This document shows positions 7,664 through 51,336 of a stretch of DNA of 64,000 nt, in pieces. Where the stretch lies: positions 920,536 through 984,535 of the forward strand of contig NZ_RQXX01000001.1 in NCBI RefSeq assembly GCF_004011175.1, in the 5' to 3' direction. This DNA comes from Mesobaculum littorinae. GTDB lineage: Bacteria > Pseudomonadota > Alphaproteobacteria > Rhodobacterales > Rhodobacteraceae. Below the pieces are notes generated by a model. It was not told the DNA's origin and did not search any database. It was given only the letters and a program-made list of their open reading frames with translations. Both the position numbers and the translations under genes were made by a program. Every line of letters begins with the position of its first letter. Position 1 is the first letter of the stretch.

Positions 7664-7745
7664 TCTCAATCTCCTCCGGAACCGATTGATGCCAGCAAGG
7701 GCGGGCTTGTCCATAGATAATGTGCCCCGCGCCCGATCCAAGATG

Positions 7746-33734: not shown

Positions 33735-33808
33735 GGCGAGTTGGCGGAGTGGTTACGCAGCGGATTGCAAATCCGTGTACACCGGTTCGATTCCGGTACT
33801 CGCCTCCA
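33735..33808 (+). tRNA. tRNA-Cys (GCA)
   Basis: The acceptor stem GGCGAGT pairs with ACTCGCC. The anticodon loop TTGCAAA gives anticodon GCA, the T arm is CCGGTTCGATTCCGG, the discriminator base is T, and CCA is encoded. It marks the left boundary of the mobile region; no duplicated 3' end of this tRNA was found at the other side. Confidence 0.97.
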
Positions 33809-33934: not shown

Positions 33935-34116
33935 TCACAGCCAGTAGATGACGACTGCTGCGAGAGCGATGGCGGAGAAGAATGCCTTGGGGCACCTGTC
34001 GTATCGGGTTGCTACGCGGCGCCAGTCCTTGAGCCTACCGAACATGATTTCGATACGGTTGCGCCGTTTGTAGCGACGCTTGTCGTATTTCACGGTCGTC
34101 TTGCGTTGCTTTCGAC
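33935..34116 (-). pseudogene. IS5-family transposase, C-terminal part (cut off by transposon)
   Basis: The reading frame gives RKQRKTTVKYDKRRYKRRN and then RIEIMFGRLKDWRRVATRYD and CPKAFFSAIALAAVVIYWL, the conserved end of IS427-type transposases with the final catalytic Glu (RIE). Codons before RKQ come from the inserted transposon. The missing N-terminal part is at 49781-50356, separated by the 15.7-kb insertion. The reading frame is otherwise undamaged, so the insertion is probably fairly recent. Confidence 0.9.
34109..34116. repeat. 8-bp target site duplication, left copy
   Basis: CTTTCGAC directly precedes the left terminal repeat and is identical to 49773-49780. Eight-base duplications are typical of IS66-family transposition. 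Confidence 0.93.
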
Positions 34117-34137
34117 GTAAGCGTTGCATCTGACCCC
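34117..34137 (+). repeat. Left terminal inverted repeat of the transposon
   Basis: The 21 bases starting GTAAGCGTTGCATCTG are the exact reverse complement of 49752-49772; weaker similarity (about 9 of 15) extends inward. Confidence 0.93.
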
Positions 34138-34173
34138 GCGAGTGGCATCTAGCTAGCACACTCCATTGCTCGT

Positions 34174-34196
34174 ATATTGGCGCGCAGCGCCAATAT
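34174..34196. repeat. Perfect 10-bp hairpin near the left transposon end
   Basis: ATATTGGCGC and GCGCCAATAT are separated by GCA, 57 bases inside the left end. No T-tract follows in either direction. It could end the DUF3644 operon transcript, which stops about 100 bases away, or be a structural site for transposition. Otherwise the 34138-34291 stretch shows no gene. Confidence 0.6.
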
Positions 34197-34291
34197 GAAA
34201 CAGTAAATGCTAGACATTCCCGGCCCTGATCCGACCCTCGCGCTCGGCACGGTAGATGGCCTGTATCAGATCACTGCTCCTTGACGCCCAG

Positions 34292-35491
34292 CTACACTTT
34301 CTTCGGTCGCGTCCACCCTTCGTCGAGCTTCTCGAGCACCTTCTCCAGCCAGTTTTCGTACCAATACCAAGTGTTCGCGACCTTCACGCCATAACCTTTG
34401 CCGGGATTGCGGGCATCAAGCTGCTGGAAGAGCTTGGTGTGATCGTACATACTGAACGCGGCGTGTCCTGCCGCCTTCACCTTCGTGACGATCTCGCCAG
34501 GCAGATATTTCGGTCGCTCGACCTCCTTCAACAGAACCCGCTCGACGGCCTCTGCTTCCGGAGAGCCTGGTTTGATGAACTCCACCGCGAGATCCGCCTT
34601 GCTGGCTTTGCTTGCGACCTTCGGGACGAAGGCGACGCGGAACCGGAATTTCGGGTCCTTCTGCTCATGCTCCGAAAGCGCCTCATGGAAGGCGTCCATG
34701 GCAGTCGCAATATGCGCCGGTAGGTCGGTAGCGATCAGGCTTTGCCGCTGTACACCGTCGAAAGTTACAAATTGCAACGCGATAGGAAGCCGCTTCTCTA
34801 GGGCGAATTCGCGTCCGAAGAGGTCCTTGATGGTATCGTTGAAGTTGATGCAGCAGGCCTGCAGTTTCGCGCTAAGCGCATCGTCGATCCTGTTGGTGGA
34901 CCGATGCTCGATCTCGTTCCTGATCTCGATCAGGAATTTGAGATTATTGACGACGCCGCTTTGGAGGGGACAGGCACCAGTCGAGATGCACTGGCTCAGT
35001 TCCCAGTATTTCTCGGCTCCGGATGGCGTGCGTTCAACAACGCCGGCCTTCTTGTGCCGGTAGTCGATGCCTTCGCGCTTATAATAGGCGTGCATTAGAT
35101 AGGTCCACGCGATGATCGCGGTGACTATGAAGAGTTCGGCCCTAAAGTAGAGACCGGCGCTATTGAATGTGTGGACGGCAGCGATCATGGCTTCACGCGC
35201 TTTGACAAGCAGCTCGTCGCCTTGGAGGTGGAGGCCGGTTTTGGGATCAATGTCCGGCCAACTGTCCAGAAAGGTATCGAGCTCATCATCAGACGCGGCC
35301 TTGATGGCCTTGTGCTTCGTGCCGTCCTTTATCTCGGAAATGCGTGCGTTGTTGATCGAGCGCGTCGGTCGGGAGAAGTACGCTTGGATATCCTGGGGCA
35401 CGAATTTGCGGGACAACATCGCCTTGACGATCGCGACCTCCCACTTCTCAAGCGTATTACCTGGTCGCCTCGCCAAATTAGTGCCCCCCAT
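34292..35491 (-). CDS. DUF3644 protein with HEPN-like RNxxxH motif
   Basis: The 399-residue protein has the DUF3644 layout: KWEVAIVKAMLSRKF.PQDIQAYFSRPTRSINNARISEI near the N-terminus, GDELLVKAREAMIAAVHTFN, a YFRAELFIVTAIIAWTYLMHAYY helix, KYWEL..C, and FLIEIRNEIEHR at residues 187-197. The R191-N-x3-H196 motif is the active-site pattern of HEPN ribonucleases, so RNA cleavage is a reasonable but untested guess. The C-terminal 150 residues (GKGYGVKVANTWYWYENWL) look like a separate nucleic-acid-binding module. It is the last gene of a three-gene operon, 24 bases after its neighbour. Confidence 0.82.
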   Translation of the reverse strand: MGGTNLARRPGNTLEKWEVAIVKAMLSRKFVPQDIQAYFSRPTRSINNARISEIKDGTKHKAIKAASDDELDTFLDSWPDIDPKTGLHLQGDELLVKAREAMIAAVHTFNSAGLYFRAELFIVTAIIAWTYLMHAYYKREGIDYRHKKAGVVERTPSGAEKYWELSQCISTGACPLQSGVVNNLKFLIEIRNEIEHRSTNRIDDALSAKLQACCINFNDTIKDLFGREFALEKRLPIALQFVTFDGVQRQSLIATDLPAHIATAMDAFHEALSEHEQKDPKFRFRVAFVPKVASKASKADLAVEFIKPGSPEAEAVERVLLKEVERPKYLPGEIVTKVKAAGHAAFSMYDHTKLFQQLDARNPGKGYGVKVANTWYWYENWLEKVLEKLDEGWTRPKKV

Positions 35492-35515
35492 ACCTTGTCT
35501 GAATTGTTCGTGTTT

Positions 35516-36454
35516 TCAATCGTTGCCGTAGTCCGGCTCGTATTCCATTTCGCGTTCCTGCTGGTCTTCATGGATGTAGCTGAGACCGGAGGCATCAATT
35601 TCGTCGCTTCCCATGAGCATCAGGTCGCACGTCGGGCAGCGGAACTCCTCGCCGAGAAACTCCCGGTCGACGATTTCCCAGATCGCGTACTCATCGCGCT
35701 CCTCGCTAATCTCCTCGCTGGACTGCTCGCCCGTCATGAAGGCACGGCATTTGCAGGCCGGGCAGCTTTCGACCCAAATCTCGTCGTAGCGTCCCTTGAA
35801 AAGCTCCACCTGATGGTGCGGCTCGCGTAGATCAGCCTCGGCGGCCAAGCGCTCCCGCTCAGACTTCTTCAGTGCGCCGAACCGCTCCTTTGCGGCTTCA
35901 ACGCGTATTTTGACCGCAGCATCGAGGGCGTTTGCTGCCTCTTCGAGTAACTGGCGAGGGGCCTTTGCGTCCGCGGCGCCGAGCCATTTCTCCAGAGATG
36001 ATCCCATCTGGTGCAGAATCGTGTCGCACGCATGCCAATAGCGCGCCTCCCAGGCGTCGAGCCGCATGGTCCTAAATGGGAGGTCTGCTGAGTGCAGCTC
36101 CGCGTTTCGACGCTCGGCAATATCTTGGCAAAACTTCTGCACCGTTTTGTCGAAACGGGGGACAAGGTGAGTGAGCCGTTCGAAAAGAGTCTTTGCGGCG
36201 ATCGTCTTGACGTCGGTAGTCACGTTGATGCCGGCAGCGACGAACATCGATTGCCAGTGTGTCGGATCAACCACGAGGCTGGGGTGTTTCCGAGCCAGCG
36301 CAGCCTTACCGAGTAGCTCGAGCGCGAGCGAGGCCCAGAGCTGGTACTCATCAAGATCGCCGACGCCCTTCCGCGCGAGGGCGCGACCAACGTAGACCTT
36401 CGACTTGGCATGCAGCGCATCGCTGTCGATGGCGATGTAGACATTCTCAGGCAT
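35516..36454 (-). CDS. Uncharacterised protein with HEPN-like motif and C-terminal zinc ribbon
   Basis: The 312-residue protein is largely helical. An N-terminal EYQLWASLALELLGKAALA region and DIAERRNAELHSADL at 112-125 contain R116-N-x3-H121, the HEPN nuclease pattern. The C-terminus has a zinc ribbon with C231, C234 and C236 (ESCPACKC) and C273 and C276 (FRCPTC), a likely nucleic-acid or protein-binding part. The ATG at 36454 is preferred because the longer frame only runs inside the upstream gene, overlapping its stop by 8 bases. I do not recognise a named family. Its operon partners suggest a defence role. Confidence 0.78.
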   Translation of the reverse strand: MPENVYIAIDSDALHAKSKVYVGRALARKGVGDLDEYQLWASLALELLGKAALARKHPSLVVDPTHWQSMFVAAGINVTTDVKTIAAKTLFERLTHLVPRFDKTVQKFCQDIAERRNAELHSADLPFRTMRLDAWEARYWHACDTILHQMGSSLEKWLGAADAKAPRQLLEEAANALDAAVKIRVEAAKERFGALKKSERERLAAEADLREPHHQVELFKGRYDEIWVESCPACKCRAFMTGEQSSEEISEERDEYAIWEIVDREFLGEEFRCPTCDLMLMGSDEIDASGLSYIHEDQQEREMEYEPDYGND

Positions 36455-37133
36455 CGATGAGAATCCTCGCGAGGCTTCGGCCGGACCCGTGGGCCGACCG
36501 GCTGCGTCCGTGTAGGACGCGCCAGTTGTCAATGATTAGGATGTCGCCCTGCCGCCAATGAAGCGCGTACGAATGGGCGCGCGTAATCCTGTCCGCGACT
36601 AGTTGCATAGCTTCTCGGCCACGCTCGCCCAGAGGCTCAAGGCAGCCGGGATCGTAGCGCAGAAACGTTCCGCCCGGCGCAAGGATGGTCGAATAGAAGG
36701 ATCGTCGACCAGTGCGAACGAGGACAGGTGCCTCTTCGAGAAGCGCAAGCTCCTCGCGCTCAAAGCCGAGCTTGCGCCAATCGAGCAACGTCGTTGCCGC
36801 AGGTGTCTCGCCTGGATCGATACACCCGAGAAGCAGGTAGCGGCATGGTCTCGGGCGATGACTGAGTTCAATATGAAACGGCAAAGCGCCTAACCCATAT
36901 TGCGCGCTCAGGGATCGTGGATGCGCATCTTCGGCGACAATCGGTTGGACAACCTCACGTAGTTGCCCCGAACGTCCGGCAACACGGGTGCCTAGGCAAT
37001 CGCCTAGCTTGACCATCTCCTGCAGTATCGCGTCGGAGGTCTCTCCATCGCTTCGATGGAGAGACCAGCCGCTCTCGTACAATGGTCCGGAATCTTGTTC
37101 GGGATCCGAGACGACGACGTCGCCTGCAGTCAT
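36447..37133 (-). CDS. TauD/TfdA-like Fe(II)/2-oxoglutarate dioxygenase-like protein
   Basis: The protein carries a plausible facial triad. Counting from the alternative GTG start at 37160, these are H96-x-E98 in LPFHIELSH, H217 in NWRVLHGR and the 2-oxoglutarate-binding R232 in SLARILIDA. Surrounding strands (RYLLLGC, TLLDW, WRQGDILIIDN) fit the double-stranded beta-helix of the TauD/clavaminate synthase group. HxE rather than HxD is a permitted variant in that group. I prefer the ATG at 37133 (AGGG seven bases before it) over the GTG at 37160, which has no ribosome-binding site. It heads the operon with the HEPN-like and DUF3644 genes; its substrate is unknown. Confidence 0.72.
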   Translation of the reverse strand: MTAGDVVVSDPEQDSGPLYESGWSLHRSDGETSDAILQEMVKLGDCLGTRVAGRSGQLREVVQPIVAEDAHPRSLSAQYGLGALPFHIELSHRPRPCRYLLLGCIDPGETPAATTLLDWRKLGFEREELALLEEAPVLVRTGRRSFYSTILAPGGTFLRYDPGCLEPLGERGREAMQLVADRITRAHSYALHWRQGDILIIDNWRVLHGRSRSAHGSGRSLARILIDA

Positions 37134-37165
37134 CTGGCAGCCCTGGATTGCTTTCTTCACAGCAC

Positions 37166-37196
37166 AATATAATCAATGCTTAATGCAGTGCGTCAA
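37166..37196 (-). promoter_or_regulatory. Predicted sigma-70 promoter of the dioxygenase operon
   Basis: On the minus strand TTGACG (37196-37191) is followed after 17-19 bases by ATTATA/TATATT (37173-37166). Transcription would begin close to the GTG at 37160, leaving about 25 bases before the preferred ATG at 37133. Confidence 0.6.
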
Positions 37197-37500
37197 GCGC
37201 CCCTTGCATCGAGCTTCGGTTGACCACAGATTACGGCATGTCCGCTTTCTCGCCAGAGCCATCTGCAGTGAATAGGATGACGAAAAGGCCATGGGCGAAA
37301 TGGCTGCCTTCCCATATTTTCACCTGAAGGCTGATGGGGTAGTTTTCGTCACACACCTGACATTGATCGCTGTCGCAGCGCATATCCAATCCCGCCCTTG
37401 GCCGCGAGCACACCTTTGACCCCACTCTTTAGAAGCCGGTTCGCAGACTGAGGACGCTCCTGATAGCCCGCAAAACGAATGGCTTGCCCGCCGCCACTAG
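37197..37500. other. Non-coding stretch between the dioxygenase operon and tnpC
   Basis: About 300 bases between two minus-strand units. A 64-codon minus frame at 37231-37425 has a CDSDQCQVCDE cluster but no ribosome-binding site or known pattern, and I do not call it. No IS66 end (GTAAGCG) is visible here, so tnpC does not appear to sit in a separate intact IS. Confidence 0.5.
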
Positions 37501-39180
37501 TCAGATCGCTGTCAGCCCCTTCGGGCAATGCCAGGGCAAGAGCTTGTCATACTCAGACAATGGCAACTTATTTGCAAGCTTTTCGAAAACCCATGTGAAG
37601 TAGGCATGCGGCTCAACTCCATTCAGTTTGCATGTGCCAATCAGGCTGCTCATAATTGTCCAGACCTTGCCGCCGAACTCTGATCCAGCGAAAAGGGCAT
37701 TCTTGCGAAGCAAAGCCAGGGGCCTGATCGTGTTCTCTACCGCGTTGTTGTCCATCTCCACGCGTCCATCTGTCAGAAATATGCGCAATCCGTGACGAAT
37801 TTTCATCGTGTAATTAACCGCTTCACCGAGGACTGATTTCGATGGGATCTGAGAGCTGAGCACCTCCAGGTAACCGAACAGATCATCAACGATAGGTTTG
37901 CTTTGAACCTCTCGAACAGCCTGCCGGACCGCTGCCGACGCATTTTGTGACAGCAACACCTTTTCGATTCCGTAGAGCTCTCCTATGCGCCTCAGCACCT
38001 CTCGTGCCTCGATTGAACCACTCTTCTCTATCGGCTCGAATTTCCGCCTCGCATGCGTCCAGCAGAAGGCAAGGGTGAGTGGCCCGCCAGCTCGATCTTT
38101 CCTAGTCAAGCGGTTGTATCCCGCATAGGCATCTACTTGCAGGGTGCCTTTGAACCCTTCGAGAATTGCCTCTGCGTGCCGCCCTTCGCGCGAAGTGGCA
38201 AAGTGAAACGCAACGGCGGATGGCTTATTGCCCATCCAGCGACGGTCATCTCGACATAAAGCCCAAGCAAAACAGGTTTTAGTCTTTCCCAGGCCGGGCT
38301 GTAAAACAGGTATTCGCGTTTCATCTGCAAAAAGCTTCGAGTCGGCCTTGATATCTATAAGCAACGCTTCATAGATCGGCTTCAGTAGAGCGCCCGCCTT
38401 CAGTGTTAAGCGGCTGAGCGTAGCTCTGCTCAATCGGGCTCCTGAGCGGCCAAATATTTGCTCAAGTCGGTACAGTGGTAGGAAATCTGCATACTTCGAT
38501 ACCAAGATGCCAACCACCGCACTATCGTCGAAACGAGTGTAGTCAAATACGCGGGATTTCGTTCGGGCTTGCACAAAACGATCGCAGTTTCGACAAGTGT
38601 ATTTTTGATAGACCTCTTTTTTGATGTATATCTCGGCAGGTTTATGAGCCAATTTTTCAATTATCTGCGGAACCATTCTCACTCTGCCGCAGCCACAGGA
38701 ACAAAACTGGTCAGGCTCCGGTTCGATGATCTGCGTTTCGCGACGAAGGTGCTATGGGGTCTTAAGGTGTTTTTTGCCGAGCATCCCACGAGGCTTCGCC
38801 TCTACCTTTTCGGTTGTCGTGCCGACCACGTTCTCAATATCATTCACCTCAGATACGTTGCTTCCGCTGGATTGAATGGTATTCAATGAATTCTTCCCAA
38901 CGCGAATGCCTCTGAGGTGGCTCTTCTCGCTACTTGGCCCAAACCTTTCCCTTTGGAAGTTCTTGAGCTGAGCTTCTTTTCTCTTAAGAGCCGCGTGCAA
39001 TACCTTCGTCTCCGCTGTCGCTGTCGACAGTCTGGCTTTCAGTTTGACAAACTCATCATCGCGTTGACGATCCGCCTGTTTGATCGTATCCGAGAGATCT
39101 TGAACATACCTGTCCTGGTGGCCTGCGAGTTGGGCGCAGGCCGCTTGTATAATATCCATCCCATCATCCCAGTGGCCCAA
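37501..39180 (-). pseudogene. tnpC: IS66-family transposase TnpC, interrupted by an in-frame amber codon
   Basis: The 559 sense codons plus one internal stop encode a whole IS66 TnpC. First comes an N-terminal helical/leucine-rich part (QRERFGPSSEKS near residue 78). Then a zinc-finger-like FCSCGCGRVR, YTCRNCDRFV, and the DDE domain with Asp in LFADETRIPVL, Asp in LQVDAYAGYNRL and Glu in VEMDNNAVENTIRPLALLRKNALF. A TAG at 38752-38754 splits it in frame (HLKTP-stop-HLRRETQ), with no frameshift. Unless the stop is suppressed, only the 142-residue head or an internally started tail would be made. It lies 9.7 kb from tnpA/tnpB and is markedly AT-richer than they are. Confidence 0.85.
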
Positions 39181-39362
39181 AAGGGTCTTGGCTCAAAACC
39201 GCAAGCAAGACCCGAGTGTGCATGCCCGTGGGGTGACGGGCATGAGGCTTGGCTTCTTCGTTCTTGTCGGGGATAGATGCGATGTCGCGCCGAGCGATTT
39301 TTCGAGGCCCTCGGGATTGGCGTCCCGGGGCCTCAACTCTTCCAGAGCCCTTTGCTTCTAGT

Positions 39363-39617
39363 TCATGTTCCGTCTCCGCCGTTAGCAGTGTAGCGGTCCG
39401 GAAAAAGAACTTCAGGGCGAGTAGCCAATGCTTGCGCCAAGATCAGCTCGATGCGCGCGGATCTACTTTTCCCAAGTGAAACCGCACTGACAGAAGACAC
39501 GCTAACCTCAGCGCGTCTCGCAATCTCAGCGAAGGTCAGGCCACGCAGGGAAAGCTCGTATCGGATTCGAGCATGTCTTTCTCTATCGATGGCCAAATCC
39601 AATGGGGCGCCTTTCAC
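39363..39617 (-). CDS. Small HTH regulator (Ner/Nlp-like)
   Basis: The 84-residue protein contains one helix-turn-helix: LRGLTFAEIARRAEVSVSSVSAVSLGKSRSARIELILAQAL, shown in part around residues 28-65. This resembles the Ner/SfsB lambda-repressor-type regulators found in phages and restriction-modification loci. The start is probably GTG at 39617. It is divergent from hsdM, with 443 bases between them that contain four identical 10-bp motifs, so it is a good candidate to control the restriction operon and itself. Confidence 0.75.
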   Translation of the reverse strand: MKGAPLDLAIDRERHARIRYELSLRGLTFAEIARRAEVSVSSVSAVSLGKSRSARIELILAQALATRPEVLFPDRYTANGGDGT

Positions 39618-39733
39618 ATTCGCGAATCACTTAAGAGGGAAGTGGCGCACTGAACAATGAAGATCAATAGTGAAGTTGATATAAGAAGTTGACGGATATT
39701 TGTGAAACGCTGCTGTCGGTCGAATAATCAGAA

Positions 39734-39855
39734 TTTTTCGCAAGGGCAATAATAAGTTTTTCGCAAGTCGTCATCTCAGCTATAATGGATTAGTAGTATG
39801 CGCTTTGCGCGGGATTCGCCCTATTTTTCGCAAATCCTTAATTAATTTTTCGCAA
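39734..39855 (+). repeat. Four direct repeats TTTTTCGCAA (candidate operators)
   Basis: Exact copies begin at 39734, 39757, 39824 and 39846. They form two pairs with start-to-start spacing of 23 and 22 bases, about two helical turns, so proteins bound to each pair would lie on the same DNA face. The second copy overlaps the -35 position of the TATAAT promoter. Confidence 0.8.
39758..39786 (+). promoter_or_regulatory. Predicted promoter of the hsd operon
   Basis: A perfect -10 TATAAT at 39781-39786 faces hsdM. The -35 position (39758-39763) reads TTTTCG, a poor match that lies within a TTTTTCGCAA repeat, consistent with control by a bound regulator. The leader would be about 270 bases. Confidence 0.5.
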
Positions 39856-40060
39856 TTCTTTCGGACGCTTGCTTGGCGTCGTTTTTTTCTGCACCTTTTT
39901 TGACGTTGCCGGCCAGTAGCCCATTCAGGGTCGGCAGTTTCAAGGTCTTGGCTCGACTTGGTCAGGCAAGGTGTATCTGTTCCTCGCGGCCAAGAGGCGC
40001 TAGACCTGAGATCAACTCGCGCGAAGAGAATGCGGGCGACTTGGCGAAGGGCAGAGCACG

Positions 40061-42514: not shown

Positions 42515-43734
42515 ACCCCATTCCAGATGATTGGTCTCGACTGACGCTTTTGGATCACCTGAAGCGACCGGCCACATACGGCGTGGTTAAGGCGGGAACT
42601 TTCGTATCTTCAGGCGTGCCAATGTTGCGCGGCGGCGACATTAAGTCGGGTCGCATCTCTACTGATGTGCCCTTAATTACCCATGAAAAAGATGCCGAGT
42701 ATGCGCGAACGCGCTTGGAGGCGGACGACGTGGTTGTCGCACTGGTCGGCTATCCCGGCGAGAGTGCTATAGTCCCGCCTCGGCTCGTGGGCGCCAATAT
42801 TTCGCGGGCGGTTGGTCTTTTGCGCCTTTCAGGCGGATTGAGACCGGACTACCTCGTCCACTTTCTTAATTCGTCTATGGGGCGCTCGGAATTCCTTCGT
42901 CCGGGTGCCGGATCAGCGCAAATGGTCGTCAACCTAAAGGACCTGAACAAGCTCGAAGTGCCTTGCCCGCCAACCTCCAAAGAACAGGAAGCCATCGCCG
43001 AAGCGCTTTCGGATGCGGATGCGCTGATCGAGGGGCTGGAGCGGCTGATCGCCAAGAAGCGGCTCATCAAGCAGGGCGCGATGCAGGACCTCCTGACCGC
43101 CAAGCGCCGCCTTCCAGGGTTCTCGGGGGACTGGGACAGCTTCCTGCTCGGCGATTTCTTGAACTTCAAAAACGGTCTCAACAAGGCGAAGTCTTTCTTC
43201 GGACACGGGACGCCGATCGTGAACTACATGGATGTGTTTGGCGGTGGCCGCATTGACGCTGCGTCGATCGCCGGCTTGGTGGAAGTGACGACCGCAGAGC
43301 AATCTGCCTACGGGGTGAAGGACGGAGACATCCTCTTCACTCGAACTTCCGAAACCCCCGATGAGATCGGCTTGGCCGCCGTCGCGGATGGCGTCCCCGA
43401 AGGAACGGTATTCAGTGGCTTCGTGCTTCGTGGTCGGCCCCAGAATGAAAAGCTCACACGGAACTTCTCGAAGTATTGCTTCCGCTCCGAACCGATCCGG
43501 AGACAGATCATCTCAAGGGCGACCTACACCACGCGCGCACTGACGAACGGGCGACAGCTTTCTCAGGTCGAGATCTACGCGCCGAACGACGCCGCCGAGC
43601 AGGATGCAATCGCCTCCGTCCTGACCGCCATGGAAGCTGAGATCCAAGCCCTCGACACCCGTCTCGAAAAGGCGCGGCAGGTGAAGGAGGGAATGATGCA
43701 AAACCTTTTGACCGGACGGATCAGGCTGGTCTGA
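42511..43734 (+). CDS. hsdS: Type I restriction-modification system, specificity subunit HsdS
   Basis: HsdS sets the recognition sequence through two target-recognition domains. The 407-residue protein has domain 1 (about 1-150), then a conserved helical spacer with PPTSKEQEAIAEALSDADALI and KKRLIKQGAMQDLLTAKRRLPGF. Domain 2 (about 205-345) and a matching C-terminal spacer (AEQDAIASVLTAMEAEI, VKEGMMQNLLTGRIRL) follow. Both spacers are complete, so the subunit should be functional. The first domain is less GC-rich than the flanking genes, as is common where recognition domains are exchanged. Confidence 0.95.
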   Translation: MNPIPDDWSRLTLLDHLKRPATYGVVKAGTFVSSGVPMLRGGDIKSGRISTDVPLITHEKDAEYARTRLEADDVVVALVGYPGESAIVPPRLVGANISRAVGLLRLSGGLRPDYLVHFLNSSMGRSEFLRPGAGSAQMVVNLKDLNKLEVPCPPTSKEQEAIAEALSDADALIEGLERLIAKKRLIKQGAMQDLLTAKRRLPGFSGDWDSFLLGDFLNFKNGLNKAKSFFGHGTPIVNYMDVFGGGRIDAASIAGLVEVTTAEQSAYGVKDGDILFTRTSETPDEIGLAAVADGVPEGTVFSGFVLRGRPQNEKLTRNFSKYCFRSEPIRRQIISRATYTTRALTNGRQLSQVEIYAPNDAAEQDAIASVLTAMEAEIQALDTRLEKARQVKEGMMQNLLTGRIRLV

Positions 43735-43776
43735 CACCTTATTTGAACGAGTGATTTCCAGAACGGAGAGGTCCCC

Positions 43777-46700
43777 ATGAGCAAGATCGGCGAGGCGGAA
43801 CGCAAGGCCCAAGATAGGGTCATCGACCTGCTCTGTGGTGACAAATCCGGCACCTCGGGCGGCCTCGGCTGGCGCTACCTGGGCGACTGGCAAAAGCGTG
43901 AGGGCAACGCCAACATCGAGCCCTCCCTGCTCCGCCCCTGGCTGGAGGCGCGCGGCTATGCGCCCGAGGTCATCACTCAGGCCATCACCCGCCTTGAGCG
44001 CGAGGCGCGGATGGAGGGCACCAAGCTTTACGAGGCCAACCAGAGCTTCTACGACATGCTCCGCTACGGCGTGGCCATCGCCCCTGGCCCGGGCGAGGCC
44101 CCCGTCACCGTGCGCTTTGTCGACTGGGGCGATGCGGGCGCAAATGACCTCGGCGTGGCCGAAGAGGTCTCGATCAAGGGCAAGGACGCCAAGGCCTGGA
44201 ACAAGCGGCCCGACCTGGTGCTCTATGTCAACGGTATCGCGCTTGGCGTGGTGGAGTTGAAGAGATCCACCGTGGGCGTGGGGACCGGCATCCGCCAGAC
44301 GCTCGACAACCAGCGGCCCGAGTTTATTCAGCACTTCTTCACCACGGTGCAGATCACCTTTGCGGGCAATGACAGCGAGGGGCTGCGGTATGCCCCGATC
44401 AAGAAGCCGCAGCCCTATTGGCTGGCCTGGAAGGAAGAGAGCGAGATCTCGGCCCGGCTTGACCGCGATGTGACCCAGATGATGGCGCCGACGCGGTTCC
44501 TAGAACTGATCCACGACTTCACGTTGTTCGACGCGGGCATCAAGAAGATCGCCCGCCCGAACCAGTACTTCGCCGTGAAGGCCGCACAAGAGCGCGTCGG
44601 CTCGCGAGAGGGCGGGATCATCTGGCAGACTCAAGGCTCGGGTAAGAGCCTGATCATGGTGATGCTGGCACGCTGGATCCGGGAAGCGTTCCCGGATGGC
44701 CGTATCCTGGTGGTCACCGACCGCAAGGAGCTGGACAGCCAGATTGAGGACGTATTCGGCAATACCGGCGACAAGGTGCGGCGCGCGCGATCAGGCAACG
44801 ACCTGATGGCCGCACTCGCCGATCCGACGGATCGCATCATCTGCTCCCTCGTCCACAAGTTCGGCAAGAAGGAAGAGGGGGAGCTGGAAAGCCTGATCTC
44901 CGATATCCAGAACGCCAACATCGGTGCGCCCAAGGGCGAGTTCTTCGTCTTCATCGACGAGGCGCACCGCACCCAGTCCGGCAAGCTGGCCAAGGCGATG
45001 CGCAAGGTGCTGCCCAAGGCGATGTTCATCGGCTTTACCGGCACGCCCCTGCTGCGGTCCGACAAGGGGACTTCGCTTGAAACCTTCGGCCCCTACATCG
45101 GCAAGCCTTACCGATTTGACGAGGCAGTCGAGGACGGCGTGGTGCTGGACCTGCGGTATGAAGCCCGCGACATCGACCAGAGGATCAGCGCTCCTGAGAA
45201 GATCGACGCCTGGTTCGAGGCCAAGACAAAGGGGCTGACGCCGATCGCTAAGGCGACGCTCAAGCAACGATGGGGTACACTTCAACGTGTGCTGTCGAGC
45301 CGTGACCGGCTGGAGCAGATCGCCAACGATATCATTCTGGATATGGAGATGAAGCCGCGCCTGAACGCGGGCATGGGGAACGCCATGCTTGTGGCGGGCT
45401 CCATCCCCGAAGCGTGCGAGCTCTTCGAGATATTCCGGAAGTCCGGGTCAATTTTGGCCGACAAGTGCGCAATCGTGACGTCCTACAAACGCGCCGCCCC
45501 GGAAATCACCGGTGAAGAAACCGGCATGGGCGAGACCGAGAGACAGCGCGTCCACCGAGTCTACACCGAGCTCTTGGGCGATACGTCGGAGGAAGAGTAC
45601 GAGGAAGAGGCGCTACGGCTGTTCAAAAAAGAGCCGGGGCGGATGAAGCTGCTGATCGTAGTGAGCCGACTGTTGACCGGCTTCGATGCGCCGACGGCCA
45701 CCTATATCTACATCGACAAACAGATGCGGGACCATGGGCTGTTTCAGGCGATCTGCCGGGTGAACCGCTTGGACGGGGATGACAAGGATTTCGGCTATAT
45801 CGTCGACTACAAGGATCTGTTCCGGAACATCGAAAGCGCGGTGGACGACTATACGTCCGAGGCATTCGATGCCTTCGACAAGGAGGATGTCGAAGGCCTG
45901 ATCACGGATCGTGCCGAGCAGGCCGATACGGATCTGCGGACGGCGCGCGATGCCTGGCTTGGGCTTCTCGATGCGGTCGAGCAGCCTAAGGGCGATGATG
46001 AGCTCTTCGCGTATTTCTCCAGCCCCGAAGGCATCGAAAGCGATCCGGACGCGGAAGAGAAAGCTCGCCGCCGCCAAGCGCTTTACAAGTTGGCGGGGCG
46101 CTATGCGCGTGCCTACACGAACGTCGCCGCCGAACCGGACGGATCGGGCTTCAACGAGCTGGAGCTGGCGGAAATGCGCAAGGAGGTCGAGCATGCCATC
46201 GGCGTCCGCGATGCCGTGCGGCTCCACAGCGGCGATGCCGTTGACATGAAGCTCTACGAGCCGGCCATGCGCCACCTGATCGACAATTATATCAGGGCCG
46301 ACGACTCTCAGGCCATCTCTCACCTGGATGACATCAGCCTGATTGACCTGGTCGAGAGCAAAGGGGCCCAAGCCGAGGATGATCTTCCGGCGCCCTCCAA
46401 GCGCAAGCGTGAGAACGTCGCCGAGGCGATCGAGAACAACGTCAGGAAGCTGATCATCGACGAAACACCGGTGAACCCAAAGTTCTACGAGAAGATGTCA
46501 GAGTTGCTGACTGACCTGGTGGCGCAGCGCCGAAGCGGCGCGATCGAGTACGCCGAGTATTTGGAGAAGATCGCGGAGCTGGTAAGGGTCGCGAAATCCG
46601 GGCATGGCAATACCTATCCTGAGAGCATGAAATCGCCCGGGCAGAAGGCGTTGTTCGACAACCTGGGACAAGATGAGGCCCTAGCGCGCCGGGTCGACGA

Positions 46701-46845
46701 GGCAGTACGGGCGACTGCCCCCCACGGGTGGCGCGGTCATACGATGAAAGAAAAGAAAGTCAGACGCTGCCTGGAAGCTGAGATTTCGGATCCCGACACT
46801 GTGGATACGCTACTGCAGATACTGAAGAACCATGGTGAATACTGA
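43777..46845 (+). CDS. hsdR: Type I restriction-modification system, endonuclease/translocase subunit HsdR
   Basis: HsdR translocates DNA and cuts at a distance. The 1022 residues have the PD-(D/E)xK nuclease (RPDLVLYVNGIALGVVELKRS, about 143-163) and Walker A TQGSGKS near residue 287. DEAH as FIDEAHRTQSG near residue 394, motif III GFTGTPL, and motifs V-VI (LLTGFDAPTATYIYIDKQ, LFQAICRVNR) follow. A helical C-terminus is present. All key residues look intact. It begins 42 bases after hsdS with a GGAGAGG site, and the metallopeptidase gene overlaps its end by 14 bases. Confidence 0.96.
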   Translation: MSKIGEAERKAQDRVIDLLCGDKSGTSGGLGWRYLGDWQKREGNANIEPSLLRPWLEARGYAPEVITQAITRLEREARMEGTKLYEANQSFYDMLRYGVAIAPGPGEAPVTVRFVDWGDAGANDLGVAEEVSIKGKDAKAWNKRPDLVLYVNGIALGVVELKRSTVGVGTGIRQTLDNQRPEFIQHFFTTVQITFAGNDSEGLRYAPIKKPQPYWLAWKEESEISARLDRDVTQMMAPTRFLELIHDFTLFDAGIKKIARPNQYFAVKAAQERVGSREGGIIWQTQGSGKSLIMVMLARWIREAFPDGRILVVTDRKELDSQIEDVFGNTGDKVRRARSGNDLMAALADPTDRIICSLVHKFGKKEEGELESLISDIQNANIGAPKGEFFVFIDEAHRTQSGKLAKAMRKVLPKAMFIGFTGTPLLRSDKGTSLETFGPYIGKPYRFDEAVEDGVVLDLRYEARDIDQRISAPEKIDAWFEAKTKGLTPIAKATLKQRWGTLQRVLSSRDRLEQIANDIILDMEMKPRLNAGMGNAMLVAGSIPEACELFEIFRKSGSILADKCAIVTSYKRAAPEITGEETGMGETERQRVHRVYTELLGDTSEEEYEEEALRLFKKEPGRMKLLIVVSRLLTGFDAPTATYIYIDKQMRDHGLFQAICRVNRLDGDDKDFGYIVDYKDLFRNIESAVDDYTSEAFDAFDKEDVEGLITDRAEQADTDLRTARDAWLGLLDAVEQPKGDDELFAYFSSPEGIESDPDAEEKARRRQALYKLAGRYARAYTNVAAEPDGSGFNELELAEMRKEVEHAIGVRDAVRLHSGDAVDMKLYEPAMRHLIDNYIRADDSQAISHLDDISLIDLVESKGAQAEDDLPAPSKRKRENVAEAIENNVRKLIIDETPVNPKFYEKMSELLTDLVAQRRSGAIEYAEYLEKIAELVRVAKSGHGNTYPESMKSPGQKALFDNLGQDEALARRVDEAVRATAPHGWRGHTMKEKKVRRCLEAEISDPDTVDTLLQILKNHGEY

Positions 46846-47572
46846 ACACCACATCATCGGAGGAACGCCGGTCGAGGTCCGCTGGAAGGCGATCAAGAAC
46901 CTCCATGTCGGTGTCTATCCGCCTGTCGGCCAGGTCAGAGTTGCCGCCCCGCTGAGCGTCAGTCTCGATGCCGTCAAGCTGGCTGTCCTCACGAGAATGG
47001 ATTGGGTTCGTCGCAAGCAAGCCCGTTTCCTCGCTCAGGAGCGCCAGACGCAACGGCAGTACGTCTCCGGCGAGACACACTTCGTTTTTGGCCGGCCTCT
47101 TCGACTGGATGTGATCCATTGGGACAAGAAGGTCCACCGGATCGAACTCATCGGCAGTGACCGGCTCCGCTATTCGGTGCCGGCAGACACAACGCCTGCA
47201 GTACGCAGGCGTTGGCTGGAGAATTGGTACAAGGCTCGCCTGAGGGAGCACGTGGCTCCACGGCTCGAGCATTGGTCATCGCATTTAGGCGTTGCCACCG
47301 AAACCTGGGGCATCCGGCCCATGAAAACGAAATGGGGCAGCTGCAATCCGGACAAGAAAATCGTCTGGCTTAATCTCGAGCTCGCCAAGAACCCCGTTGG
47401 GGCGATTGAGTACGTACTGCTGCATGAGCTCGCCCACCTGATATCGCCGCGCCATGATGAGCGTTTCATCAAGGTCCTTGACGACAATATGCCGAAGTGG
47501 CGCAGCATACGCGACGAGCTCAATCAGTATCCGCTTGCTGCGTGGGAAGATCTGCAGACTTTGGCTCGGTGA
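46832..47572 (+). CDS. YgjP/SprT-like zinc metallopeptidase of the restriction operon
   Basis: The 246-residue protein is a DUF45/YgjP-type gluzincin. It has GIRPMKTKWGSCNPDKKIVWLNLEL, then the HExxH active site in LLHELAHLISPRHDERF near residues 196-212, with a further His as third ligand. This protein is a frequent fourth member of type I restriction loci; its role there is not settled. It starts inside the last codons of hsdR. Its 3' end overlaps the convergent small membrane gene by 53 bases. Confidence 0.9.
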   Translation: MVNTEHHIIGGTPVEVRWKAIKNLHVGVYPPVGQVRVAAPLSVSLDAVKLAVLTRMDWVRRKQARFLAQERQTQRQYVSGETHFVFGRPLRLDVIHWDKKVHRIELIGSDRLRYSVPADTTPAVRRRWLENWYKARLREHVAPRLEHWSSHLGVATETWGIRPMKTKWGSCNPDKKIVWLNLELAKNPVGAIEYVLLHELAHLISPRHDERFIKVLDDNMPKWRSIRDELNQYPLAAWEDLQTLAR

Positions 47573-47777
47573 CGTCGTCGCTCGGCCTGTCGGTTGCGCG
47601 CGATTTTTCCAGGGCCTGCCGCCGCAGCTCCATTCCCCGTTCCACAAATCGCCGAACACGTTCCGGATCTGGTTCGACATCTCGTATCGAAGAGCGGTAG
47701 GCGATGGTGACCTGGATGGCGCCAACGATGCATGCGCCGATACCAAACACGACGAAGATGATCTCGAACTCAATCAC
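47520..47777 (-). CDS. Small single-pass membrane protein downstream of the AAA+ gene
   Basis: The 85-residue protein has one N-terminal transmembrane helix (IIFVVFGIGACIVGAIQVTIA, about residues 5-26) and a charged cytoplasmic tail with PERVRRFVERGMELRRQALEKS. The start is GTG at 47777 with a strong GGGAGG 10 bases upstream, 39 bases after the AAA+ stop. Function is unknown. Its C-terminal coding part overlaps antisense the end of the YgjP-like gene by 53 bases, so the two messages could interfere. Confidence 0.7.
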   Translation of the reverse strand: MIEFEIIFVVFGIGACIVGAIQVTIAYRSSIRDVEPDPERVRRFVERGMELRRQALEKSRATDRPSDDVTEPKSADLPTQQADTD

Positions 47778-47816
47778 GAAGCCGCCTCCCTAGTGTGATG
47801 AGCGCGTGAAATCGGT

Positions 47817-48905
47817 TCAATGCAACGTGGGGTGACATTCGAGATCAGCTGCCCTTTGCAGCACCCGTGCCGCAGTTCTCAGACTCGGTTGGCTCGCCTG
47901 GCCGGCACGCTTGAAAGCTTCGACAGCGGCGTCCAGGGCCACGTCGCTGGTGCCCTGCCTGCGCCCTTCGCGCCAGATGAACATGACCAGTTCGTCAGTC
48001 GTTAACGCTCGTAGGGATATCGGTGGGCATCTGCTCAGAAGCGGCTCGGGCAACGCGTGGTAGTTGTTGAATGTCAGGACCCAGATGACCCAGCTCATGT
48101 CGAACTTGACCTGATAGAATGGGCAACTCCAGCTTCGTGCGGTCAAGGGCTCCAACAGGGGTAGCAGCGCCTCCGACAGTCCGAATGCGCGGCCTGACAT
48201 GGACGTCGCAGTCCCAGACTTCTCGACCTCATCAACGACCATGACCGGATTGCCGACATGTTCCATAAGGATCGTGGAAATGAGACGCCCGAGGCCGGCG
48301 CTTCCCCATCCACGCTGGGACCCGACGACACCGAATGAAGCATTTTCATTCGTTGCCTCGATAACGGTCGTGGGTACGGTCAAGAGGCGGCCAAGACGCC
48401 GCGCCCAAAAGCTCTTGCCAATCCCGGGAGGGCCATCGAGCAGGATGGGCGGCAGGCGAAGACCTATGGTGCCTTCTCTTACCGACCTGCGCATGGCCCT
48501 CCAGACCTGTTCGGTCGCGGGCCCCATCCAGGGCATTTCATCGTGAAGGGCCGCCGCGATTTCGTCCGCTTGGTGTTCGGTCTTCACCGTCGCAAGCCGA
48601 ACGCCGCCTGCCAAGGCGGTCAATCGCTCCCGTTCATCCCTCTGCAAATGGCCCATCCCTGACGCTTCCTGGCGGCGTGCAATAAGCTTCTTGACGCGTT
48701 TCTGGATCCTGCTCCTCTCGAGATGGGTTATCCTCGTCTCATGCAATTCCTGATTGTCAACTCCAAGCAGTTCGACTTCATGCGCCGGCTGGTCGACCTG
48801 GCCACTTCGCAATAGCCGCAGGTGCTTGATGAAGCGCTTTTCAAGGTAGTCAGCGGTCTGCTCGACGGGAAAGATCTTGCACTGAATGAAAGGGATCGTC
48901 GCCAT
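47817..48905 (-). CDS. AAA+ ATPase coupled to IS66 tnpA/tnpB
   Basis: The 362-residue protein has an N-terminal helical region with basic patches (RSRIQKRVKKLIARRQ). A Lon-like AAA+ core follows: Walker A LDGPPGIGKS at 156-165, Walker B VMVVDEVEKS near 213, a sensor strand WVIWVLTFNN, arginine finger region LLSRCPP, and a helical lid. There is no protease or nuclease domain. Its ATG at 48905 lies one base after the tnpB stop (TGA-G-ATG), so it must be translated with the transposition genes. A role in target choice or transposase regulation, as for IstB or TnsC, is an inference. Confidence 0.82.
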   Translation of the reverse strand: MATIPFIQCKIFPVEQTADYLEKRFIKHLRLLRSGQVDQPAHEVELLGVDNQELHETRITHLERSRIQKRVKKLIARRQEASGMGHLQRDERERLTALAGGVRLATVKTEHQADEIAAALHDEMPWMGPATEQVWRAMRRSVREGTIGLRLPPILLDGPPGIGKSFWARRLGRLLTVPTTVIEATNENASFGVVGSQRGWGSAGLGRLISTILMEHVGNPVMVVDEVEKSGTATSMSGRAFGLSEALLPLLEPLTARSWSCPFYQVKFDMSWVIWVLTFNNYHALPEPLLSRCPPISLRALTTDELVMFIWREGRRQGTSDVALDAAVEAFKRAGQASQPSLRTAARVLQRAADLECHPTLH

Positions 48906-48906
48906 C

Positions 48907-49281
48907 TCACTCGACCTCCGCTCTTGTTTTGTTGAAAATGGATGGGTGGTGATAGGCGGCCGAAACGACGCGGCGCCAATCGATCCCTTCAAAGAGCGCT
49001 TCAAACTGTGCCTTCGTCAGGGTCATCGTCCCGTCGGAAAGTTTGGGCCAGACGAAGCCTGCGCCTTCGATACGCTTGTAGATCAGCACGAGGCCGGTGC
49101 CGTCCCACATCAGGACCTTGATCTTGTCACGACCCTTCGAGCGGAAGACGAAGAACGCACCGGAGAAGGGATCGAGTTCGAAATTGGTCATGACGTAATT
49201 GGCCAAGCCATCCATCCCCTTCCGGAAGTCGACAGGGTGAGTGGCCAGATAGATACGATAACTGCTGGACGGCGCGATCAC
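48907..49281 (-). CDS. tnpB: IS66-family accessory protein TnpB (Orf2)
   Basis: The 124-residue protein shows the IS66 Orf2 pattern: YRIYLATHPVDFRKGMDGLANYV, FELDPFSGAFFVFRSKGRDKIKVLMWDGTGLVLIYKRIE (both shown in part), and W..LSDG.MTLT.AQF..L. It is needed for IS66 transposition together with TnpA and TnpC. I chose the GTG at 49281, which overlaps the tnpA stop as GTGA and matches the usual MI.P start; a GTG at 49287 is also possible. Confidence 0.92.
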   Translation of the reverse strand: MIAPSSSYRIYLATHPVDFRKGMDGLANYVMTNFELDPFSGAFFVFRSKGRDKIKVLMWDGTGLVLIYKRIEGAGFVWPKLSDGTMTLTKAQFEALFEGIDWRRVVSAAYHHPSIFNKTRAEVE

Positions 49282-49682
49282 TGACACTGCCCCGCAACAT
49301 GGATCAGCTTCAGAAGGTCTGCTTCGTTGATGGACAAAGGAAATTGTAGGCAGATCCCGCCCACGTACAGATGAGCAGAGCCGGCTGAGCCATTGCCTGC
49401 AGTGGTCGTTTGGGGCGCCGCCGGCGCGACAGCCGGTTCGACTGATATCTGCGCGAAGGCTGGCCCATCGACGGAGATCTTTTCGCCTCGCTCTCGCCGA
49501 TCAGCAACCCACCACTTTCTCACCAGGCATTCGTGGGCATCCAGCTCGGCGGCGACATCTCCAGGTGACATGCCATCTTCCCGAAGGCGCCTGGTCGCCT
49601 CGCGTTTGAGTTCGCTCGGCCAAATCCTTTTGCCCGACGGGGAGGTCCGGATCTTGAACCCCCAGACTTCACGTTCCGCCAT
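49278..49682 (-). CDS. tnpA: IS66-family accessory protein TnpA (Orf1)
   Basis: The 134-residue protein has an N-terminal HTH of the transposase Orf1 type (WPSELKREATRRLREDGMSPGDVAAELDAHECLVRKWW, in part). A linker and a C-terminal IS66-TnpA signature HLYVGGICLQFPLSINEADLLKLIHV follow. The start lies 90 bases inside the right end of the transposon, the normal IS66 position. With tnpB, the AAA+ gene and the membrane gene it forms one minus-strand unit. Confidence 0.9.
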   Translation of the reverse strand: MAEREVWGFKIRTSPSGKRIWPSELKREATRRLREDGMSPGDVAAELDAHECLVRKWWVADRRERGEKISVDGPAFAQISVEPAVAPAAPQTTTAGNGSAGSAHLYVGGICLQFPLSINEADLLKLIHVAGQCQ

Positions 49683-49751
49683 AGTCGCCTCCGATCGTAG
49701 TTCGGATGCAGACTAGCGGACGACAGGTGGTCAGGTTTAGAGGGCAATCAG

Positions 49752-49772
49752 GGGGTCAGATGCAACGCTTAC
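49752..49772 (-). repeat. Right terminal inverted repeat of the transposon
   Basis: It ends ...TGCAACGCTTAC and is the exact reverse complement of 34117-34137 over 21 bases. Confidence 0.93.
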
Positions 49773-49780
49773 CTTTCGAC
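49773..49780. repeat. 8-bp target site duplication, right copy
   Basis: CTTTCGAC follows the right terminal repeat and matches 34109-34116 exactly. Confidence 0.93.
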
Positions 49781-50399: not shown

Positions 50400-50419
50400 A
50401 AATCAATGGGTCCTGAGCC
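50400..50419 (-). repeat. Right inverted repeat of the IS5-family element
   Basis: On the minus strand it reads GGCTCAGGACCCATTGATTT; the left partner is at 33915-33934 with 17 of 20 positions identical. TA flanks both ends. Confidence 0.8.
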
Positions 50420-50421
50420 TA

Positions 50422-51114
50422 GGCGGCCTGGGAATCCGCATTCCAGGCGCGACCGTTTTTGCGGATCGGGATGCGCGCTTCGGCCCCTCGCTCGTTAATC
50501 GCGACAAGGCATCGCCTGGTGTCATAGGCACCGTCGGCCGTGACCGAGCCGATCTCTTCATGCTCGGGAAGTTGCGCCAGCAAATCCGGCAGCATCGGGC
50601 TGTCGCCTTGCCGACTGGACGTGAACTCGACGGCCCGGACATCGCCGGTCTGCCGTCCATGCCAATATGGACCTTGCGCCACTGCCTACGACGCGAAGCA
50701 CAATGCTGGCGCGCCTGCCATTCGTCGTCACCGCGGAACTTGATGCCGGTGCTATCAACAGGCAGGGTCACGGGGCCGTCCGAGCGGCGATAGGGGAAAT
50801 GCACGGCAAGCGGGCCTGGCGCCGGCAGAGCGTGGAATAGTCCGGAACGGGCGAATCCAGCCCCGCCATCTCGATCAGGCTGGCAACAAACCCGACAGCT
50901 TGTCGTAACGGCAGGCCGAACAACACCTTCAGCGTCAGGCAGGTCTGAATCGCGCTCTCAGAGAAGGTCTCGGGATGACCGCGCTTGCCGATCTTCGCTG
51001 CATGCCAAGTCATCGCGGGTCTAACCAGATCGAGAGAGACCCGCGTCGGCGCAGAGCGGCATTGTAGTCGGGCCAGTCCGTCGTGCGCCAGCGGGGAGAG
51101 GGGGGCTTCGGCAT
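50422..51114 (-). pseudogene. Second IS5-family transposase, frameshifted and truncated
   Basis: From the ATG at 51114 the frame gives MPKPPSPRWRTTDWPDYN, then a one-base loss near 51018 and a restart at MTWHAAKIGKRGHPETFSES. The frame changes again near 50800 (HFPYRRSDGPVTLPVDSTGIK) and near 50655 (TGDVRAVEFTSSRQGDSPML). It ends at KNGRAWNADSQAA, where the first IS5 element begins. The DDE residues in PVDSTG and TADGAYDT remain, but three frameshifts and loss of the last third make it inactive. The missing end is not found at the left flank near tRNA-Cys, so DNA was lost after insertion. Confidence 0.85.
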
Positions 51115-51261: not shown

Positions 51262-51336
51262 TGGTGCCCGGGGGCGGAATCGAACCACCGACACGAGGAT
51301 TTTCAATCCACTGCTCTACCCCTGAGCTACCCGGGC
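51262..51336 (-). tRNA. tRNA-Phe (GAA)
   Basis: On the minus strand the acceptor stem GCCCGGG pairs with CCCGGGC, the anticodon loop TTGAAAA gives GAA, the T arm is GGTGGTTCGATTCCGCC, the discriminator is A, and CCA is encoded. It follows the yacG cluster, as is usual in Rhodobacterales, and forms the right boundary of the mobile region. Confidence 0.97.

Follow-up and report, generated by a model that had tools for sequence, protein, structure and literature searches.

IS66 elements typically, although not by definition, consist of a compact tnpA-tnpB-tnpC block of about 2.5 kb. Work on how bacteria gather and trade defence genes has largely centred on prophages, integrative elements and Tn7-like transposons, the last of which use a transposase family different from that of IS66. 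Type I restriction-modification (RM) loci are known to exchange HsdS domains, the recognition halves being swapped between conserved segments. As far as the accessible part of the report goes (PMC12888890), passengers were found in 7 of 25 Pseudomonas IS66 members, and such tIS66 elements include ISPa75, which carries fosZ, measures 2,996 bp and harbors its passenger only after tnpC. Tn7-like transposons are described as discrete elements with diverse defence cargo (PMC8649781, accessible portion).

Within a 64-kb stretch of DNA, hereafter the window, we identified an element that we read as a new form of the already known passenger-carrying tIS66. Judging from the available text of PMC12888890, both kinds have tnpA, tnpB and tnpC, a GTAAGCG-type left end and a passenger downstream of tnpC, and the right end of ISPa75 resembles that of other IS66 members. 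Window-type elements differ from tIS66 in being 14 to 17 kb long, in carrying a type I RM operon between tnpAB and tnpC and in having two cargo zones, a regulator with operator-like repeats and a tail palindrome. With classical IS66 they share the TnpB and TnpC families, the GTAA tips and the 8-bp duplication, whereas the 10 complete classical copies that we measured spanned 2,366 to 2,610 bp and had no such tail palindrome. They resemble Tn7-like transposons as discrete transposons with varied defence cargo (PMC8649781, same limitation), but have a fixed internal RM core and an exchanged half. Their HsdS halves swap as in other type I RM loci, except that here the swapping locus is itself transposon cargo, and the other half of that transposon is exchanged too. 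The element was not described in the open PubMed Central literature that we found, including PMC12888890, PMC3925955 and PMC5001619, each available only in part. We are confident that it is an IS66-family transposon, with observed ends, duplications and plan, in which tnpAB at the head is split from tnpC in the tail half by about 10 kb of cargo and which acts as a vehicle for defence exchange, its transposition, restriction and defence being inferred.

Ends, insertion site and gene content

The element spans positions 34117 to 49772 (15.7 kb) and is bounded by IS66-type inverted repeats. The initial annotation had proposed perfect 21-bp terminal repeats with a GTAAGCG tip and an exact 8-bp duplication, and both were borne out: the repeats at 34117-34137 and 49752-49772 are identical at 21/21 positions and differ at base 22, and CTTTCGAC is present at both 34109-34116 and 49773-49780. 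GTAA-tipped inverted repeats with an 8-bp duplication, also present in 10 canonical copies, fulfil this part of IS66 membership. In its own genome (23 contigs), the full 21-mer with up to 2 mismatches was found at these two ends only. A 12-base version of the end gave 8 matches with up to 2 mismatches in the window, compared to 4.4 expected, and was thus not beyond chance, its zero-mismatch matches being the two ends only. Insertion within an IS5 transposase, as also claimed, was supported at the DNA level, since the joined flanks with one duplication copy gave a gapless 811-bp alignment (89% identity) to Mameliella alba plasmid pKUB257, where the matched region is an uninterrupted annotated IS5 transposase, i.e., an empty IS5. 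No syntenic site was found in the single same-genus genome searched for a chromosomal empty site, which gave only a tRNA-Cys match (99%, 74 bp) and an 89-bp piece elsewhere. The features of the window copy are as follows.

34109..34116, tail-side target duplication CTTTCGAC (sequence)
34117..34137, + strand, tail terminal inverted repeat, 21 bp, GTAAGCGTTGCATCTGACCCC (sequence)
34174..34196, subterminal palindrome ATATTGGCGCGCAGCGCCAATAT; its TTGGCG core begins at base 61 of the end
34292..35491, - strand, DUF3644 protein, PADLOC candidate PDC-S19, second cargo (Pfam 7e-55, PADLOC 4e-113)
35516..36454, - strand, p338, conserved protein, second cargo (R-N-x3-H and two Cys-pair motifs)
36447..37160, - strand, TauD/TfdA-type oxygenase, second cargo (profile match)
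37501..39180, - strand, tnpC, IS66 DDE transposase (PF03050 4.9e-85), in-frame TAG at 38752-38754
39363..39617, - strand, winged-HTH regulator, HTH_35 (profile match)
39734..39855, + strand, candidate operators, four exact TTTTTCGCAA copies starting at 39734, 39757, 39824 and 39846
40061..42514, + strand, hsdM (PADLOC E 0)
42511..43734, + strand, hsdS, exchanged recognition domains (PADLOC 7e-112)
43777..46845, + strand, hsdR (PADLOC E 0)
46832..47572, + strand, YgjP-like metallopeptidase (PF01863 9e-54)
47520..47777, - strand, small conserved ORF, 85 aa (conservation)
47817..48935, - strand, AAA+ ATPase overlapping the tnpB 3' end (PF00004 2e-7)
48907..49287, - strand, tnpB, IS66 Orf2 (PF05717 3e-37)
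49278..49682, - strand, tnpA, IS66 Orf1-like (position before tnpB; PF01527, HTH_Tnp_1, 0.004, below cut-off)
49752..49772, - strand, head terminal inverted repeat, 21 bp, reverse complement of GTAAGCGTTGCATCTGACCCC
49773..49780, head-side target duplication CTTTCGAC (sequence)

The full RM cargo that had been annotated is indeed there: hsdM, hsdS and hsdR are all full length inside the ends, as a type I RM system requires, methylation and restriction activity being inferred only. A passenger together with IS66 genes inside the inverted repeats satisfies the definition of tIS66. TnpB is preceded by TnpA, as in IS66, TnpA being assigned by position only, and tnpC qualifies as an IS66 DDE gene despite the in-frame TAG, with an IS66 C-terminal element (3.3e-16) in addition to PF03050. 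The compact IS66 layout is not met, as the gene order is kept but tnpB is 10.4 kb from the DDE domain. Among 50 tnpB loci in 80 genomes of the family, tnpC lay at most 2 kb downstream in 41, no tnpC was linked in 8, and a tnpC 2 to 20 kb away was found only in the window.

In the second cargo, the DUF3644 protein, which we take to be HEPN-like, meets the PDC-S19 profile, PDC-S19 being a candidate and not a proven defence family; an R-N-x3-H motif was spotted in it by eye. The start of p338 was placed at M27, as in two relatives, and family profile searches assigned it no family. The pair formed by p338 and the TauD/TfdA-type oxygenase is also present on Rhizobiaceae plasmids.

The AAA+ ATPase was considered as an essential transposition protein, given that it overlaps tnpB and follows tnpB in a Martelella element, but this role was set aside because the gene is absent from the copy on a plasmid of strain SC52 and because other homologues share their cassettes with DUF6634 proteins and metallophosphoesterases. 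Also counted in favour of the role were one homologue just after TniB/TniQ genes on a plasmid and another, on a different plasmid, near genes annotated as transposase and ATP-binding protein. In a class-wide sample of 385 genomes, no strong match outside its own genome was seen among the matches listed, the next best being partial (8.7e-31, 36%), and many of the weak matches fall in reading frames about 800 aa long, taken as Lon proteases.

Related elements and their exchanged parts

The proposed check, that the same ends should occur elsewhere with 8-bp duplications of their own, was passed by seven further elements with linked ends, six with exact duplications and one with 7/8 identical bases. 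Their hosts are Sagittula, Oceanicella, Chachezhania, Alloyangia, strain SC52 (plasmid), Phaeobacter (short derivative) and Martelella (distant).

L071, 15,741 bp, duplication CTTCTTCG
L072, 16,569 bp, duplication ATCCGGTG
L074, 16,840 bp, duplication GAAGGAAG
L077, 16,767 bp, duplication GCATCGTT/GTATCGTT
SC52 plasmid element, 14,442 bp, duplication GTCCAATC
L073, 3.8 kb, duplication GATTGGTC
Martelella element, 15,414 bp, duplication AATATACT

Counting the window, 6/8 elements harbor the type I RM operon; the Phaeobacter derivative lost it, and the Martelella copy carries type I secretion cargo and has a tail hairpin of a different kind. The RM copies share one plan: head repeat, tnpA, tnpB, AAA+ ATPase (SC52 excepted), reversed type I RM operon, HTH gene with operator-like repeats, tnpC, second cargo and tail repeat. 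A plasmid search with the window TnpA returned 4 records. We did not count L094 (genome G045), in which type I RM, tnpC and reverse transcriptase UG13a lie beside a tail-like end without a partner end in the roughly 38 kb that were read, and we left out L005, a partial core on a 5.1-kb contig of a Methylocystaceae MAG that could be mis-binned (rpoB 69.6% over 1,922 bp). At L096 (genome G072), a tail end whose partner was not found has IetAS and SIR2-HerA no more than 9 kb away.

The core is 91 to 96% identical to that of the window in five copies and 73 to 84% in SC52. Compared with five other copies, DNA identity was 93.8 to 95.5% from the head to the hsdS 3' end and 91.1 to 93.5% from hsdM to the HTH gene, above that of rpoB in the same five hosts (81.7 to 84.2%). 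The central and C-terminal segments of HsdS are identical or near-identical in 7/7 copies, while the recognition halves are only 21 to 32% identical, with two exceptions involving SC52 (half 1 versus Oceanicella, 79%; half 2 versus Alloyangia, 77%). On our reading, recombination exchanges one recognition domain at a time between the conserved parts of HsdS, and this should yield new DNA specificity.

The tail half varies as well. The tnpC body is 32 to 80% identical to that of the window across tails, and the second cargo is different in all six complete RM copies: DUF3644/PDC-S19 in the window and, elsewhere, Septu-like, Gabija (two lineages), Hachiman-like and cold-shock-domain ATPase genes. 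Five of these six second cargoes match PADLOC defence or candidate-defence families, the Alloyangia matches being partial, and that of SC52 gave only a weak one-domain match. This, together with the RM operon in 6/8 elements, upholds the earlier description as a defence-island-type transposon, no defence having been measured. Further defence-like tails were seen at L091 (NACHT, weak Mrr) and L094 (UG13a). The RM operon could instead serve chiefly as an addiction module by which the transposon is kept, the second cassette being incidental. We regard this as unlikely: a constant type I RM next to a variable second cargo would fit it, as would the Martelella element, similar in plan but with secretion cargo, but the defence-type matches of the second cargoes and of the L091 and L094 tails speak against it, and the diversification of HsdS is better explained by selection from phages and plasmids than by pure addiction.

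Tail palindrome and regulator repeats

ATATTGGCGCGCAGCGCCAATAT is the sole TTGGCG-n(0-8)-CGCCAA in the window. A covarying palindrome occupies one fixed position in 7/7 near-relative tails and was found in none of 18 head ends (next to tnpA) and none of 10 ordinary IS66 tails; it is absent from the Martelella tail. Scanning 48 matches to the inverted repeat, we found it at the same position in 11 and in degenerate form in 3 more; 14 unassigned matches lacked it, one of which (L081) has a Sagittula-type tail repeat. Three pairs change on both sides. The covariation score was reached by 0/500 shuffles and the number of such pairs by 17/500, and the outermost pair is formed in just 5 of 14 rows. 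We infer a possible role for the palindrome in labelling the tail end for the transposition machinery. An intrinsic terminator was rejected, as no T run flanks the window copy on either side, and so was a general IS66 mark, given the canonical tails. A fixed-spacing dimer site does not fit, as the tails differ in spacing by as much as 3 bp, so that a hairpin or a flexible site is equally possible.

Operator-like repeats with at most one mismatch number 3 or 4 in 7/7 RM copies, compared with an average of no more than 0.05 after shuffling. L091 and L092 have HTH-tnpC without such repeats before the HTH gene. As we infer, the HTH regulator probably controls hsdM and/or itself via the TTGCGAAAAA repeats.

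Mobility and spread of the element

The window tnpC is interrupted by TAG at codon 143 of 559, and no other IS66 DDE gene was found in the genome. The window copy is therefore probably stranded and its present mobility doubtful. Of the six complete RM copies, three have a broken tnpC (the window, TAG; L072, TAA; L074, frameshift), and part of the spread may thus reflect homologous recombination or transposases acting in trans; the frames of L071, L077 and SC52 are uninterrupted. Both the broken genes and the lone DDE gene would suit a dead passenger block that moved long ago and now diversifies purely by homologous recombination of its type I RM locus. This seems quite improbable in view of the different targets, each with its duplication, the three uninterrupted frames, a core more similar across genera than rpoB, and a Pseudodonghicola genome with two head copies whose outer flanks differ. 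That a defence island grew by successive insertions between two unrelated IS66 ends by chance, as tails clearly from different IS66 lineages and single ends without a partner within the stretch read in other genomes might suggest, is barely credible and is refuted as the sole explanation by the duplications at linked ends; the constant layout (14.4 to 16.8 kb) of the six complete RM copies in differing surroundings also speaks against it.

For the transposon that we favor, TnpC, helped by TnpA and TnpB, would move everything between both inverted repeats, as inferred from the IS66 family. The fixed cargo is the type I RM operon with its HTH regulator; a new tail with a different cassette would arrive through crossovers, some falling between the HTH gene and the 5' region of tnpC and some in the interval from tnpC to the tail repeat. 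The outcome would be an RM system that moves and into which a second defence can be plugged. The window copy landed in an IS5 element and, either earlier or later, lost an intact tnpC. We further lean, with some reserve, towards a distinct IS66 lineage that uses the tnpAB/tnpC split as a platform, with a regulated, invariant type I RM core with swapped recognition domains, an exchangeable half, made up of tnpC and tail, that supplies a different defence cassette, a dedicated palindromic tail signal and defence exchange across the Rhodobacterales.

The slot beside the tail repeat is a place to seek undescribed defence genes, such as p338-TauD in the window, a 957-aa protein in SC52 and the NACHT protein of L091. 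Here is an insertion-sequence family with a modular defence package and exact ends, so that each exchange can be traced to the nucleotide, down to the half and the recognition domain that moved and the cassette that was plugged in.

Ends, insertion site and gene content

From the head, the terminal inverted repeat (IR) beside tnpA, the window element (34117-49772) reads inward as follows:

49752-49772, head IR
Minus strand, tnpA, tnpB, AAA+ ATPase, small ORF
Plus strand, YgjP, hsdR, hsdS, hsdM (order met coming from the head)
Minus strand, HTH regulator, tnpC, TauD oxygenase, conserved protein p338, DUF3644 protein
34117-34137, tail IR

The two IRs match at 21/21 positions, as the initial annotation had claimed, and the proposed 8-bp duplication, CTTTCGAC, is exact on both sides. 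Insertion in an IS5 transposase was likewise borne out: the joined flanks align gap-free (811 bp, 89%) to an uninterrupted annotated IS5 transposase of Mameliella alba, thus giving an empty site at the IS5 level. Within its own genome (23 contigs, ≤2 mismatches), the 21-mer end did not occur again, and the window tnpC, one frame interrupted by TAG at codon 143, is the sole PF03050 match. Visual inspection shows fragments of a second IS5-type transposase (50403-51013) next to the interrupted IS5, between tRNA-Cys (33735-33808) and tRNA-Phe (51262-51336).

Related elements with a shared core and varied cargo

Searching genomes for the same ends with their own 8-bp duplications, a check proposed in the initial annotation, yielded seven further complete elements with linked ends.

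Elements and tails, with length, duplication, state and second cargo (genes between tnpC and tail IR)
Window; DUF3644/PDC-S19 (PADLOC candidate defence family) and p338-TauD
Sagittula marina; 15,741 bp; CTTCTTCG; complete; PtuA-like/PDC-M01AB (Septu-like)
Oceanicella SM1341; 16,569 bp; ATCCGGTG; complete; GajAB
Alloyangia pacifica; 16,840 bp; GAAGGAAG; complete; Hachiman-like helicase (partial matches, best 3e-30)
Chachezhania sediminis; 16,767 bp; GCATCGTT/GTATCGTT, 7/8; complete; GajAB of a lineage other than Oceanicella's
SC52 plasmid; 14,442 bp; GTCCAATC; complete; 957-aa protein with AAA and cold-shock domains, HSDR_N match sub-threshold
Phaeobacter B1627; 3.8 kb; GATTGGTC; RM lost
Martelella lutilitoris plasmid (L132 15125-30538); 15,414 bp; AATATACT; ends 16/20 alike
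L091, more distant tail; 1,622-aa protein (5405-10273, between tnpC and tail end), NACHT, sub-threshold Mrr
L094, more distant tail; element not delimited; reverse transcriptase UG13a

On visual inspection, the Phaeobacter element retains part of a Gabija helicase of the Oceanicella type. In the Martelella element, whose IS66 plan (tnpA-tnpB-AAA, cargo, tnpC) is similar, the cargo is not defence genes but a type I secretion operon that includes a large protein. A further element, in genome G076, is divided between two contigs, with GGTTGATG outside both. The 270-aa partner of the Alloyangia helicase had no match, and the L091 NACHT protein, without a PADLOC match, is a candidate for a defence protein not yet described. 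Plasmids of Sinorhizobium and Agrobacterium also have the p338-TauD pair, there beside other genes, and a Rhodobacter capsulatus plasmid harbors 3.9 kb, including the Oceanicella Gabija, at 92.7% identity, indicating that cassettes live outside these transposons too. IetAS and SIR2-HerA defence genes (L096 2342-9371) lie close to an IS66 tail end that bears the TTGGCG palindrome described below and whose partner end was not found. The SC52 plasmid holds, about 5 kb away from its element, genes with the annotations cysteine desulfurase and DNA phosphorothioation-associated methyltransferase (L141 3085-7396).

The AAA+ protein as query returned 21 loci (genome contigs), 9 with the order IR-tnpA-tnpB-AAA (L003-L008, L011 and, with only part of AAA, L018 and L023); five of these carry all hsd genes, one is contig-cut, one is shortened and two are truncated after AAA. 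The remaining 12 hold an AAA relative at 41-59%, with tnpB nearby in 2. Relatives were observed after TniB/TniQ genes (L135 5738-10104), close to genes with transposase and ATP-binding protein annotations (L133 12086-15601), and in cassettes that also encode DUF6634 proteins and metallophosphoesterases (L134 9013-11925, L136 6004-10922). The lineage is rare: the IR pattern is present in 31/292 genomes of the order, and among 29 loci read from that search, only G139, G180 and G115 have, next to the IR, a tnpA with ≥67% identity across most of its length.

We compared the core, from head IR through the type I restriction-modification (RM) genes to HTH, between the window and the Sagittula, Oceanicella, Chachezhania, Alloyangia and contig-cut Pseudodonghicola copies. 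DNA identity was 93.8-95.5% from head IR to the hsdS 3' end and 91.1-93.5% from hsdM to HTH, above the 81.7-84.2% of the five hosts' rpoB against that of the window's genome; the core has thus moved between genera. The SC52 copy, 72.9-83.5% identical to the window in the core and lacking the AAA gene, belongs to an older branch. HsdS recognition halves share 21-32% identity in 40/42 comparisons. In the two exceptions, the SC52 protein matches Oceanicella in half 1 (79%) and Alloyangia in half 2 (77%). The HsdS segments that separate and follow the halves hardly differ among copies. Counted from the head, tail breakpoints fall at ~10.50-10.79 kb, in the stretch from the HTH gene to early tnpC, and the window TnpC is a mosaic (residues 1-75 Chachezhania-like, 65%; body SC52-like, 80%).

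Signals in the tail and the HTH-hsdM gap

Of 48 IR matches scanned, 11 have the palindrome TTGGCG-n-CGCCAA starting at base 61 (window, L071-L074, L077, L087, L091 twice, L096 and SC52), and those of L083, L094 and L097 have a degenerate form. Another 18 adjoin tnpA, 14 remain unassigned and 2 match only weakly and lie within elements. The Martelella tail has a different hairpin. In the 14-row alignment, 91.2% of pair cells hold standard pairs, three pairs changed on both sides (a number reached by 17/500 shuffles), and the covariation score was reached by 0/500. Since the aligned sequences are related to one another and themselves yielded the structure, this is support, not proof.

The HTH-hsdM gap contains 3-4 copies of TTGCGAAAAA (≤1 mismatch) in 7/7 RM copies, mostly as two pairs with 22-32 bp spacing (in Chachezhania, one pair plus a lone copy), against a chance mean of ≤0.05 in mononucleotide shuffles; each element has 0 to 4 more matches elsewhere. 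The repeat is absent from the corresponding gap of L091 and L092.

Place among known systems

Across 80 genomes of the family, among them that of the window, we surveyed 50 of 85 listed tnpB matches (E ≤1.2e-28) against 64 of the listed tnpC matches. Among the matches listed, tnpC lay ≤2 kb away in 41 tnpB loci and was not linked in 8; in the window it lies 10.4 kb away. Canonical IS66 loci had clear ends in 10/20 fetched (2,366-2,610 bp), none of these ten with the tail palindrome. Its anatomy, an IS66 transposon with passengers, makes the window element a tIS66. That the element moves, restricts and protects is an inference, not a demonstration. ISPa75-fosZ represents the tIS66 principle on 3 kb, ends of mixed origin included (PMC12888890). 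As far as the open-access literature was searched, its novelty lies in its size, the separation of tnpAB from tnpC, a regulated RM core, a double exchange and a signal at the tail. In carrying varied defence genes, the window-type element works like Tn7-like transposons (PMC8649781).
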